Source of the DNA: Corynebacterium durum
Lineage (GTDB): Bacteria; Actinomycetota; Actinomycetes; Mycobacteriales; Mycobacteriaceae
Reading direction: 5' to 3'
NCBI RefSeq assembly: GCF_030408675.1
Contig: NZ_CP047200.1
Location: 2,294,001 to 2,358,000 of the forward strand
DNA: 64,000 nucleotides
Position numbers and translations under genes: made by a program. Below are positions 44,397 to 50,031 of the stretch, piece after piece; the stretch's first letter is position 1, and every line of letters begins with the position of its first letter. The notes beneath the pieces were generated by a model. It saw nothing but the letters and a program-made list of their open reading frames with translations, had not been told where the DNA came from and searched no databases.

Positions 44397-45236
44397 CTAC
44401 GGCAGGGCACCGATCCGGCGTGCAGCATTAACAGCCTCGTAGCGTGTGTGCGCGCCGAGTTTACGCATGACCGAACGCAGGTAACTCTTCACGGTCTCTG
44501 CGCCAATGCCCATCTCTTCCGCAGCCTCCACGTTGGTATGACCCAATGCAACACAGGCCAGCACATCCAGTTCGCGAGCAGATAGCTTAGTAGTCTGCTT
44601 CACGCGAACTGGAGTAACCATCTGGTCGCAGAGTTCCTCAAGCTCGCGGCGTAGCTCCTCGTCACCAACGCGGTTAGCCAGCATGCGCAGCTTCGAATGA
44701 GTCGAGCGCACTTGCTCCCATTCGGCACCGTTCATCACGCGTCCGGGTTTACCTAGACCCCCGCGGCCGTCGCCACGCCGGAACGCGGCGTTAATGGCCA
44801 AGTCCTGTTCGAGGGTGCGGGCGGTCATGGTGACTTCCTCAATAACCTTGTCACCCAGGCGCACCGGGGAATGAACCCCCACGTACAGCACGCCACGGAT
44901 TTCCCGGTGCACAATCACCGGAACAGCAACGATGGAGTAGAGACCCTCGTCTTGAATAATGTTGTCGTATTCGTGGGAGATGACATTAGCCCGCGTGTAG
45001 TCGCTCACGCCGACGGGTCGGCGCGTGGTCACAACCCTGCCACCGACTCCACAGCCCGAGTCGATGATGAGGTTTTGCAGAGCAGGAGTCCGCAGTCCTA
45101 CCCACGCACTAATTTGCAGACGATTATCCGGCAGCACAGCAGCGAACATCGTAACGGGAATGCCCGTCGCAGTCTTCAATGACGTTAGTGCGGCGCGAAT
45201 CGCGTCCTCATCGTCCTTGATGCGTTGGGAATCCAA
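44397..45236 (-). CDS. ramA: LuxR-type regulator of acetate metabolism RamA
   Basis: A 279-residue regulator with an N-terminal GAF-like domain (AVLPDNRLQISAWVGLRTP, SIVAVPVIVHREIRGVLYVG) and a C-terminal LuxR helix-turn-helix (LSARELDVLACVALGHTNVE, ETVKSYLRSVMRKLGAHTR). It is very close to C. glutamicum RamA, which activates acetate and other carbon genes and binds G- or C-stretch sites, including its own promoter. TTG 45236 is preferred because AGGAGG lies eight bases upstream and gives the conserved start DSQRIKDDEDAIR; the longer GTG frame to 45260 is not needed. Confidence 0.93.
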   Translation of the reverse strand: MDSQRIKDDEDAIRAALTSLKTATGIPVTMFAAVLPDNRLQISAWVGLRTPALQNLIIDSGCGVGGRVVTTRRPVGVSDYTRANVISHEYDNIIQDEGLYSIVAVPVIVHREIRGVLYVGVHSPVRLGDKVIEEVTMTARTLEQDLAINAAFRRGDGRGGLGKPGRVMNGAEWEQVRSTHSKLRMLANRVGDEELRRELEELCDQMVTPVRVKQTTKLSARELDVLACVALGHTNVEAAEEMGIGAETVKSYLRSVMRKLGAHTRYEAVNAARRIGALP

Positions 45237-45320
45237 CCTCAAAACCTCCTGCACAACCACCCGACTTGGTACACCCGCCGGATTTTAACTTCCTATGTAA
45301 AGTGAAGTATATCCTCCCGA

Positions 45321-45518
45321 CGGGGGGTACGCATACCGATTTTTGGGAGTCTTTTTTTACATAAATCCACAAACGTACGCCCTATTAAGGGGTAGGTAGC
45401 CTTATTGATTACCCCCGACGATCTACCCCCACGAGACGCCAATATCGTACTCATTTTCATTATCACGAAGTGTCACTGAGGGGGTGATTTTTCAGCACAC
45501 GCTCCATCGGTTCACCCC
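45321..45518 (-). promoter_or_regulatory. Cluster of RamA-type G/C stretches upstream of ramA
   Basis: CGGGGGGT (45321-45328), AGGGGT (45388-45393), ACCCCCG (45411-45417), ACCCCCA (45425-45431) and AGGGGGT (45479-45485) fit the loose RamA pattern of a G4-6 or C4-5 run with set flanks. They lie in the ramA leader and promoter and fit known RamA autoregulation. The rest of 45237-45818 has no gene I can support. Confidence 0.5.
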
Positions 45519-45818
45519 TCACACACCCCCAATTTTTCCACGTCACAGCACCCAGGTTCCAGCTGCTGCACATCTGCATTTTTTAGCATGTAACTGCACA
45601 ACGGCATATAAAAGATGCATTATTGGCATCATAATTTTCTTCTACAAACACATATAGGCGAATGAACAGTCTATTTGGGTTCCCACATCCAGCGCCAGAG
45701 CAGACTCCCCCTAATTGGGTTAGTAAAGTAGCGAAGATCACTTTTCTTACCCCTTCTTGCCCCCTCCACACCCTGACAATAAGGCTCTTCTTAGCGTTTT
45801 CGGGTAAAATCATCTGTG

Positions 45819-45923
45819 CAACTGGCCCGGCCACTTTCGTGAGCGATGGTGGGCGGCGCAAGAGGGAATCCAGTGAGACTCTGGAACTGTCCCGCAACGG
45901 TAAAGTCCGACACCTGCCGGTTG
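45819..45923 (+). ncRNA. Orphan cobalamin riboswitch aptamer (plus strand)
   Basis: A compact B12 aptamer. Conserved pieces in order: AGAGGGAATCCAGTGAGACT, CTGGAACTGTCCCGCAACGG, AGTCCGACACCTGCC. Ends CAACTGG and CCGGTTG form P1 (one wobble). TAAAAT at 45805-45810 is a possible -10 box. No sizeable plus-strand gene follows before cysK, 3.2 kb away; the next coding sequence in its path is cbiO, on the opposite strand. It therefore does not control a downstream operon in the usual way. Confidence 0.82.
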
Positions 45924-46030
45924 TGCTACATCAATAACTCGGCAACGAAGCGTGACACCAAGGGCGGCACCCCTTAGACGATCACCTAGCGGACACATCG
46001 ATTCATTGCTGTTTTGTGAGGTAGCCCGTA

Positions 46031-46166
46031 CATGCCCGTGGACAGGCATATTTCGGAATACGCACACGTGAATAGTCAATCTCAGGTTCCTCCTCGCACC
46101 TCCCGTGTAACCAGCCTGAATTGCTACCTCACCTTCCGAAAACTCCCTGTTCGCGGGCATGTTTTT
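46031..46166 (+). ncRNA. Structured RNA after the orphan riboswitch, with terminator-like end
   Basis: The 28-base arms at 46031-46058 and 46134-46161 pair at about 25 positions in plus-strand RNA, two through G-U wobbles, and T5 (46162-46166) follows. The pairs work only in RNA of the plus strand, which suggests selection for this transcript. A 46-codon frame (46032-46172) with GAGG upstream runs through it; its peptide is not recognised. The RNA stops ten bases short of the cbiO stop codon. Confidence 0.6.
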
Positions 46167-46175
46167 GGATAAGGG

Positions 46176-46976
46176 TCACAGCACATCCTCTGGACGTTTA
46201 ACGGTCCGACCAAGTGCTACGGACACGACAGGTGCCCACGGCAATTCAAGTCGCGCTTTACGCAACAGCTCTGTATCAGAAAGAATGTGGTCGCAGCTGC
46301 CCACAGTGAGTCGGCCGTCCAGCAGCACCACAACGTCAGTGGCAAACTCATAGGCCAGATTGACATCATGTGTTGACAGCACCACGGCCGCCTCCAAGCC
46401 TTCAATGGTGCGAAGCAGCTTCCTGCTCCCAGCGGGGTCGAGTCCAGCCGTAGGTTCGTCAAGCATCAAAACGTTAGGCTGCATGGCCAGTGCACCAGCA
46501 AGCGCGACACGTTTGCGCTGGCCATAGGACAATTGGTGCGGAACTTTCTCCGCCAATTCACTCACTTCGGCGGCCATCATTGCTTGATCAACGCGGGACT
46601 CCACCTCCTCCGGAGTCAACCCCTGGTTCAGGGGACCAAAGGAAATGTCTTCACGCACAGACATAGCAAAAATCTGATCATCTGGTTCTTGAAGCACAAG
46701 CTGCACATGCGCACGGGCAAAGTCACGTGCCTGTTTCTTGCGGCGAGCACGGGTGATCGGAGTGCCAGCAATCACTAGTTCACCGCTTGTCGGGGTCCAT
46801 GCGCCGCTGAGCAGGCGGAATAGTGTGGATTTACCACTGCCATTTTCACCCAGCACGGCGATCCGGGCACCTTCCTGGACGCTCAGGCTCACCTGATGCA
46901 GGATCTCGGGGCCGGTGTCGTGGCTGAACGACGCTTCCTTCAATTCAACAAGAGTAGCCATCTCACTTCGCTTCAT
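46176..46976 (-). CDS. cbiO: Cobalt ECF transporter ATPase
   Basis: A 266-residue ABC ATPase of the energy-coupling factor cobalt importer. It has Walker A GENGSGKS, the Q-loop in VQLVLQEPDDQIF, the signature LSYGQRKRVALAGAL, Walker B LMLDEPTAGLD and the H-switch STHDVN. ATG 46976 overlaps the cbiQ stop as ATGA; ATG 46961 is an alternative. It is the last gene of cbiMNQO. Its 3' end faces the orphan cobalamin riboswitch RNA. Confidence 0.92.
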   Translation of the reverse strand: MKRSEMATLVELKEASFSHDTGPEILHQVSLSVQEGARIAVLGENGSGKSTLFRLLSGAWTPTSGELVIAGTPITRARRKKQARDFARAHVQLVLQEPDDQIFAMSVREDISFGPLNQGLTPEEVESRVDQAMMAAEVSELAEKVPHQLSYGQRKRVALAGALAMQPNVLMLDEPTAGLDPAGSRKLLRTIEGLEAAVVLSTHDVNLAYEFATDVVVLLDGRLTVGSCDHILSDTELLRKARLELPWAPVVSVALGRTVKRPEDVL

Positions 46977-48725: not shown

Positions 48726-48786
48726 GAGAGTTTGCCTCTTTCTGTAGTCGGGTCCGTCACCTCGCGGACCTCCTGGTTGTGACTCA

Positions 48787-48953
48787 CCGCAGCCGGTCTC
48801 CTGGCTTTGCTCACTTTCCCCTGGGGGTACTGCACGCCTTCCCATCGGTGCGTCAGGTGACAGTGGCATGCAGGCTGGGGTTTATGAAGTTACATGAACA
48901 TACAGTGGCGAGGGCCGCTGCTGGATTCTCACCAGCATTCCCGTTCACTGCGG
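48787..48953 (-). ncRNA. Cobalamin riboswitch upstream of cbiMNQO
   Basis: On the minus strand: GGGAATGCTGGTGAGAATCC, then CTCGCCACTGTATG, and the hallmark AAGCCAGGAGACCGGCTGCG. Ends CCGCAG and CTGCGG close P1. Downstream, GGTCCG / CGGACC (48751-48770) and a small hairpin over the cbiM ribosome binding site may be the expression platform. Confidence 0.92.
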
Positions 48954-49015
48954 CACTTGCAACATTATCACCCTGGCCTGAATAGCCGTATCATTTCCCC
49001 GACCCAGACACATTT

Positions 49016-49095: not shown

Positions 49096-50031
49096 GTGGG
49101 TCACATCTACCAGGACATCACCGAAACCATTGGCAACACCCCGCTAGTCCGCCTCAACCGCCTCACAGACGGCCTGCCCGGCGAGGTGCTGGTAAAGCTG
49201 GAGTTCTTTAACCCCGCCAACAGCGTGAAAGACCGTATCGGCCGCGCCATTATCGAAGCCGCAGAAGCCGACGGCACCCTCAAGCCCGGCGGAACCATCG
49301 TGGAGGCAACCTCCGGTAACACCGGCATCGCGCTTGCCCTCGTCGGTGCTGCACGCGGCTACAAGGTGGTGCTCACCATGCCGGAAACCATGTCACTCGA
49401 ACGCCGTGTCACGCTCCGCGCCTACGGTGCAGAAATCGTGCTGACTCCTGGTTCCGCAGGCATGCAGGGTGCTGTGGACAAAGCCAACGAGATTGTCGCC
49501 GAAACCGAAGGTGCCATCCTTGCCCGGCAGTTCTCCAATCCCGCCAACCCCGCAGTGCACCGTGCCACCACCGCCGAAGAAATCTGGAAGGACACAGACG
49601 GCGCAGTGGACATCTTCATTGCAGGCTTTGGTACTGGCGGTACCGTCACCGGTGTGGGCAACGTGCTGAAAGAGCGCAAGCCTTCAGTGGAAATCTACGG
49701 TGTGGAACCAGAAGCATCCGCCCTGCTCACCACCGGCAAGGCTGGCCCCCATAAGATTCAGGGTCTCGGCGCCAACTTCATCCCCGACATCCTGGACCGC
49801 AAAGTACTTGATGATGTCTACACCGTCTCCAACGAAGATGCCATTGAGACCGCCCGCAAACTCGCTTCCGAAGAAGGCATCCTTGGCGGCATCTCCACCG
49901 GTGCCAATGTCTACGCTGCCTTGAGGCTTGCTGCGTTGGAAGAAAACCGCGGCAAAACCATCGTCACCGTTGCCTGCGACTACGGTGAGCGCTACGTCTC
50001 CACCGTACTTTTCGACGACATCCGCAACTAG
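49096..50031 (+). CDS. cysK: Cysteine synthase A (O-acetylserine sulfhydrylase)
   Basis: A 311-residue PLP enzyme that makes cysteine from O-acetylserine and sulphide. The PLP lysine is Lys45 in NPANSVKDR, with [12 protein letters not shown] and GTGGTVTG as cofactor-binding loops. GTG 49096 is the start, with AAAGGAG upstream. The McbR site lies in the promoter, and cysE follows after a terminator, so the two genes of one pathway are adjacent but separately controlled. Confidence 0.96.

Follow-up and report, generated by a model that had tools for sequence, protein, structure and literature searches.

The plus strand next to the 3' end of the cobalt-transporter operon cbiMNQO in Corynebacterium durum carries a cobalamin riboswitch that no recognised gene follows. 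The same arrangement, an aptamer divergently oriented to ramA and lacking a recognised downstream gene, occurs in at least 16 of 242 genomes of the genus, spread over two clades (A and B). The unit comprises a -10-like box, the aptamer and, mostly, a long hairpin. Judged from sequence comparison, the explanation with somewhat better than even prospects is that a cobalamin riboswitch leader has lost its gene and persists as a free-standing noncoding RNA.

The window (the whole stretch of 64,000 nucleotides that was analysed) matches the RF00174 covariance model at 45806-45935 on the plus strand, scoring 57.5 bits where the gathering cut-off is 31.5; the E-value is 1.2e-11 for the whole window and 1.9e-13 for 45261-46300. 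A sequence-only reading had drawn a compact B12 aptamer at 45819-45923, and the model thus bears it out. The RNA is predicted to be B12-responsive, and probably so. On the minus strand the model finds the riboswitch of the cbiMNQO operon (48774-48967, 67.3 bits); both strands therefore hold an aptamer and, as that reading had proposed, two B12 switches in opposite orientation flank the operon. Across the window genome there are three RF00174 matches at E <= 0.001, the third (C1:1117457) preceding an ABC permease gene which is taken here to be fecCD. Besides the aptamer, Rfam gives a single match in 45261-46300 at E <= 10, to a snoRNA model (E 2.9), and it is regarded as chance.

On one side of the aptamer lies the divergent ramA-like regulator gene (44397-45257, minus strand), whose product has GAF and LuxR-type HTH domains (Pfam) and which is the constant neighbour by synteny. 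Its name is given on a presumed resemblance to the C. glutamicum gene; the labels cysK, cysE, murA and enoyl-CoA hydratase are assumed in the same manner. On the other side lies the convergent cbiO (46176-46961, minus strand), the last cbiMNQO gene, identified by its ABC_tran domain and its CbiQ, CbiN and CbiM neighbours. Pfam domains around the locus comprise CbiQ, CbiN, CbiM, the ABC ATPase, a cobalamin adenosyltransferase and the GAF-LuxR regulator. By the ORF list and Pfam, no plus-strand gene follows until cysK at 49096, 3.2 kb away and beyond four minus-strand genes, in agreement with the gap seen earlier. The same-strand downstream gene of matching function that is typical of a cis-acting riboswitch leader is thus missing here.

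A putative -10 box for the promoter of the RNA, TAAAAT (TANNNT), is found at 45805-45810 (plus strand), 13 bases before the P1 strand. TANNNT stands 13 or 14 nt before the P1-strand GCAAC in 13 of the 13 gene-less aptamer loci where a script located GCAAC; the background rate of TANNNT nearby is about 1% per position. In G165, G205 and G182, which gave no scripted GCAAC match at P1, the spacing agrees by eye. A simple sigma-70 scan of 45261-46300 found no promoter.

Downstream of the aptamer, sequence and folds give a long hairpin of 17 pairs (46030-46046 with 46146-46162) and a further 8 pairs (46051-46058 with 46134-46141). Its 5' arm, 46030-46046 on the plus strand, bears the motif GCCCGYGGAYAGG; its 3' arm, 46146-46162, runs into TTTTT (46162-46166, plus strand), a putative terminator end. 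The arms that had been read as 46031-46058 and 46134-46161, with their T5, are hence re-found within one or two bases. The fold of 45936-46175 reaches -80.1 kcal/mol (z -3.08; 1 of 200 shuffles equally good), and the complementarity of the distal arm in the window is matched by none of 300 shuffles. The long hairpin is not on the list of a terminator scan restricted to loops of 3-8. Motif and distal arm are present in 15 of the 16 gene-less loci, with G171 as the exception, and in all 15 motif-bearing loci only 0 to 12 of 300 shuffles are as complementary. The end of the arm has 4 to 9 T per 12 bases in 13 of these 15, a count that has no chance control; the exceptions are G205, with a distal arm that is far off and 3 T, and G166, with 0.

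Covariation is consistent with this pairing. Among 14 distinct sequences of the long hairpin, standard pairs make up 88.4% (81.2 in shuffles), a figure that is inflated because the distal arms were picked by complementarity. Changes on both sides affect 7 of 16 pairs (3 of 500 shuffles as high), and the cell count is 18, where shuffles average 7.7 (0 of 500), although kinship among sequences can push scores above such shuffles even where there is no structure. A local hairpin, AUGCC-CGYGGAYA-GGCAU (46032-46049, plus strand), is the alternative to the long one, and the two are mutually exclusive; pair counts on 15 distinct sequences give 10 double-change cells vs 4.1 in shuffles (0 of 500), and an ordinary number of double-change pairs (two; 307 of 500 shuffles). 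Closer to the aptamer, at 45960-45975 (plus strand), the small, presumably P13-like hairpin AAGGG-CGGCAC-CCCTT has a covarying stem, with a score of 0.560 vs 0.205 (0 of 500 shuffles) and again an ordinary number of double-change pairs (296 of 500). Its CGGCAC loop is common to eight of the nine clade A loci (all but G166); by eye, the complementarity of this loop to L5 extends to 2 to 4 bases only and is without covariation.

The long hairpin alone does not seem to account for the preservation of the motif, since A13 of GCCCGYGGAYAGG is invariant though it is paired in just four of the 15 long hairpins. Inside, the long hairpin varies in sequence and length (spans of 96 to 315 nt), and no unpaired seed common to clades A and B was seen in it. 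Automatic folding of a 330-nt stretch of G149 forms the local hairpin and not the long one. In the clade B loci L005, L006, L008-L011 and L075, the interior holds an inner hairpin with a constant loop, GAAATGCGACAG, around which the stem varies in an apparently compensatory way, as judged by eye.

A third partner for the motif is conceivable. In 16 of 20 leaders (a set without G171), GCCCGYGGAYAGG could join the aptamer core CUGUCCCGC in an identical duplex of 8 pairs and one bulge, and in the other four it could form a weaker one. The motif-core pairing is still conjectural, because the minimum-energy fold of the nascent RNA chooses it in 0 of 20 leaders and because the core is invariant. Mutually exclusive hairpins and a possible motif-core pairing together make up a candidate switch.

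Five gene-bearing leaders were subjected to a gapless arm test, in which 5 (G079), 16 (G193), 18 (G038), 94 (G226) and 146 (G183) of 300 shuffles were as good. This weaker pairing suggests that the long hairpin may be mainly a trait of the gene-less form. The gene-bearing G038 leader folds into a long bulged hairpin.

The gene-bearing leaders bear on the probable origin of the RNA. The same post-aptamer motif, or a variant of it, precedes full-length metE in G193 (790 codons), G194 and G183; in G226, a motif-bearing aptamer precedes a metE that runs into the contig end. In G038, a related leader is followed by the N-terminal half of metE only (378 codons, PF08267 alone), and in G079, which has a weaker motif, the half gene is divided over two frames. 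The G038 gene (L016:1848-2984; the same gene in L076) is in itself a riboswitch-linked MetE of 378 aa with PF08267 only, PF01717 being found elsewhere in that genome. Beyond the aptamer, ramA and then an enoyl-CoA hydratase gene follow in G038, G079, G183 and G194; in G193, the hydratase gene was seen on that side, too, and on the aptamer contig of G226 ramA was not seen. As related clade B leaders precede metE or half of it, a metE leader is the probable origin of the RNA, on the evidence of these comparisons.

A tree of MurA, RamA, CysK and CysE, with a midpoint root, some low inner supports and G149 placed from one gene, joins nine species with gene-less loci and five lacking the aptamer in clade A (support 0.948). 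The gene-less loci of clade A are those of G000 (the window), G237 (Corynebacterium sp. S30M_Sa_49), G182, G149, G165, G225 (Corynebacterium sp. 13CS0277), G166, G171 and G205 (C. mendelii). Those of clade B (G001, G055, G236, G033, G068, G098 and G101) are nested among G038, G226 and G193; G079, G183 and G194 are outside the tree.

One explanation of this pattern is that of a passive relic: metE was lost, and in the leader that it left behind promoter, aptamer and terminator are recognisable but functionless. Clade B offers a graded series that fits it, from full metE (G193, G194, G183) through half (G038) and split half (G079) to none (the nested part), and PF01717 finds no match in the window genome. 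The sequence-only reading had itself named the leftover of a deleted B12-controlled gene as an alternative, and as regards origin the leaders before metE and half metE support it. Comparison with relatives for a gene after the aptamer thus yielded metE or its half in clade B, but no metE at any of the 14 loci read in clade A. As an account of the present state, a leftover does not easily explain why nine clade A species, all with the gene-less form, retain the box, the aptamer and covarying hairpins, with compensatory changes in the paired arms. Moreover, none of the five aptamer-less relatives (G123, G172, G119, G206 and G040) shows a decayed remnant; in their ramA-cbiO gaps, RF00174 has no match even at E <= 1. 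A functionless relic is accordingly considered unlikely, if still worth keeping in mind. Remnants of metE in the gaps were sought by tblastn and rejected, the matches, in G205 and G171, being short and weak (E 0.5 to 0.97).

The methionine synthases of the carriers were surveyed in 14 of the 16 genomes (all but G068 and G101). PF01717, the MetE C-terminal domain, is absent from seven of them (G000, G237, G182, G165, G225, G171 and G236); G166 has a fragment of 33 positions, and the remaining six have matches, that of G001 in pieces. MetH (PF02965) is matched in 14 of 14. Among RNA-less species, G040 and G119 have MetE and no MetH match, and G123 has MetH and no MetE match. As a trans target, metH was tried and dropped, for the energies of motif duplexes were scattered over places in the 13 motif-bearing species. 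Upstream of metH, all 14 loci read (L240-L253) have ACTAAGSTGTCT or a looser form of it, about 20 bases before the ATG; the looser form is TACTACTCTGTCT in G205 and G171. By its sequence and position, ACTAAGSTGTCT looks like either the -10 box of a transcript without a leader or the site of a regulator.

The wider distribution was assessed by several searches. A DNA search of 151 genomes of the genus, the window's included, gave matches in 20, and beyond the window these are confined to 38 to 47 aptamer bases. RF00174, with stricter filters, matched in at least 74 of 242 genomes; locus counts are lower bounds, because the surroundings of only part of the matches were read. The gene-less ramA loci score 47.3 to 74.5 bits, 16 of 16 above the cut-off. 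Among 80 named ramA loci, the unit as defined by pattern was present in three, several contigs stopping shortly past ramA. A motif pattern search of the genus gave 22 matches vs 3 for the reversed control, half of them (11) of the GGAYA form (10 at loci of this kind, one elsewhere, in G244) and 11 of the GGAYT form; the pattern misses the gene-less clade B loci, G205 and G182, and the count is no full census. Family-wide, nine exact motif matches were found in 301 genomes besides the window and G165, so that occurrence outside the genus is at chance level (8 genomes match the reversed control). Among the loci fetched, the strict motif GCCCGYGGAYAGG occurs only at ramA-linked leaders and related metE leaders, and not after other aptamers.

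Neighbouring genes bear on the proposal, made from the sequence, that the RNA might tune cbiMNQO. In such a scheme, B12-controlled read-through into the convergent cbiO would lower cobalt uptake by antisense action or transcriptional interference. cbiO does face the RNA in 12 of the 16 loci (the window, G165, G225, G205, G171 and the seven of clade B), and in the window the T run stops ten bases ahead of the cbiO stop at 46176. Antisense-facing cobalamin riboswitches are also a described class, with 190 in Table 1 of PMC9943018. Against this, cbiO lies outside the RNA as drawn, and the RNA is retained where it faces cysE (G166) and where no cbi gene adjoins (G182, G237 and G149). Between the RNA and cysK, G182 and G237 have no cbi gene; G149 has an opposite-strand integrase-core gene, then cysK, and no cbi gene within 14 kb. 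Since the unit is kept beside ramA whatever gene faces it, antisense control of cbiO is not its conserved role, and this part of the sequence-only reading is not upheld; even as a local effect, it is judged rather improbable. In G166 (L083), an inversion has turned the block cbiMNQO-cysK-cysE around with respect to ramA and the RNA.

As ramA is the sole neighbour common to all 16 loci, a cis effect on this divergent gene, for example by divergent promoter coupling, might be envisaged. Such an effect would need no conserved B12 aptamer, the -10-like box is about 540 bases from the ramA start in the window, and at least five species retain ramA and cbi genes while the aptamer is absent; this explanation is given very little weight. 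G123 and G172, which retain the neighbourhood and not the RNA, imply that the RNA is dispensable. Plus-strand blastn of the window against the other clade A loci (E <= 1e-3) gives matches that are restricted to the neighbourhood of the aptamer and of the 5' arm. In the G237/G149 pair, the ramA-proximal part of the gap is 81% alike over 470 bases and the RNA part 70% over 504, so that conservation there extends beyond the RNA; comparison with G182 gives 74 to 75% over about 440 ramA-proximal bases and 72 to 83% for shorter pieces of the RNA. These 440 to 470 bases upstream of ramA (L110, L007 and L109; 74 to 81% identity among G237, G149 and G182) are a possible complex ramA control region.

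The aptamer could in principle also be the leader of an unannotated small protein. The window has an open frame of 46 codons (46032-46172, plus strand) with GAGGT, a plausible ribosome site, ahead of it, and the matching frame in G149 is open for 80 codons. It shuts after 27 codons in G237 and, by eye, after 8 (G165) or 15 (G182); the clade B loci lack a start codon at that place, and the window ORF has no Pfam match. Nor did Pfam match any of four plus-strand gap ORFs of 117 to 201 codons, a set that does not comprise those of G171. The ORF was rejected as not conserved: in comparisons between species, pairs within clade B excepted, ORF matches coincide with the aptamer or with paired arms, with further matches in the hairpin interior and beyond in the close pair G237/G149. 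A coding function is hence scarcely credible. G171, in which the motif is absent, has a gap of 1.6 kb past the aptamer core with ORFs of up to 163 (plus) and 194 (minus) codons.

For the free-standing RNA, the following mode of action is put forward. The RNA would be transcribed from the box near 45805 and end at the T run near 46166. Binding of cobalamin may decide which partner GCCCGYGGAYAGG takes, be it the local hairpin, the aptamer core CUGUCCCGC or the distal arm; B12 would thereby set the length, shape or stability of a noncoding RNA of about 350 nt, which could act on an RNA or protein partner away from cbiO. In C. mendelii, of which CCM 8862 is a cultured carrier strain, the predicted RNA is longer. 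More specifically, and tentatively, a metE leader may have parted with its gene, in clade B at least by steps that living species still show, and become a trans-acting B12-responsive RNA that is kept where metE is not found and MetH serves. A passive relic or a local antisense effect is less likely.

The nearest precedent is EutX/Rli55 of Enterococcus and Listeria, described in PMC5821096 as an AdoCbl aptamer that forms a noncoding RNA with a downstream structure; here, too, a B12 aptamer is followed by a downstream structure and seems not to be an mRNA leader. Unlike the present RNA, with its CGGCAC and 8-base loops, EutX/Rli55 has a dual hairpin that sequesters EutV. Dual hexaloop hairpins of the ANTAR-binding kind were not recognised here. 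The CGGCAC hexaloop lacks the A1/G4 pattern of ANTAR-binding loops. An ANTAR search of the window's own genome gave no match, yet control genomes were equally without one.

AspocR is an antisense-acting cobalamin riboswitch of Listeria. Riboswitches of this type, as surveyed in PMC9943018, resemble the present one in that the aptamer points against the 3' end of a gene. In contrast to them, the RNA appears to end before the facing gene, and the latter is inconstant, being cbiO in 12 loci, cysE in one and without cbi genes in three of 16. With an ordinary metE cobalamin riboswitch, the RNA shares the aptamer family and, in clade B, related leaders that precede metE; it differs in that no recognised gene follows the aptamer in 16 species. 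Cobalamin riboswitches of Corynebacterium are counted in passages of PMC11774034, of its preprint PMC11071462 and of PMC9600381, and two of C. diphtheriae are listed in a portion of PMC5784534. The laboratory species C. glutamicum is reported to have none, in PMC11774034 and in its preprint, the latter naming strain ATCC 31269. No description of a gene-less one beside ramA was found in the excerpts of open-licence literature covered, these four included, and the main text of PMC9943018, as far as accessible, has no word beginning with corynebacteri or cbio.

Stand-alone riboswitch RNAs are seldom documented, and how such RNAs arise is an open question. For annotation, some caution follows: proximity to cobalt genes may lead to a riboswitch being counted as their controller. 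Since full, half, split and absent genes stand beside related leaders in one genus, the change from a cis-acting leader to a free RNA would be testable in Corynebacterium.
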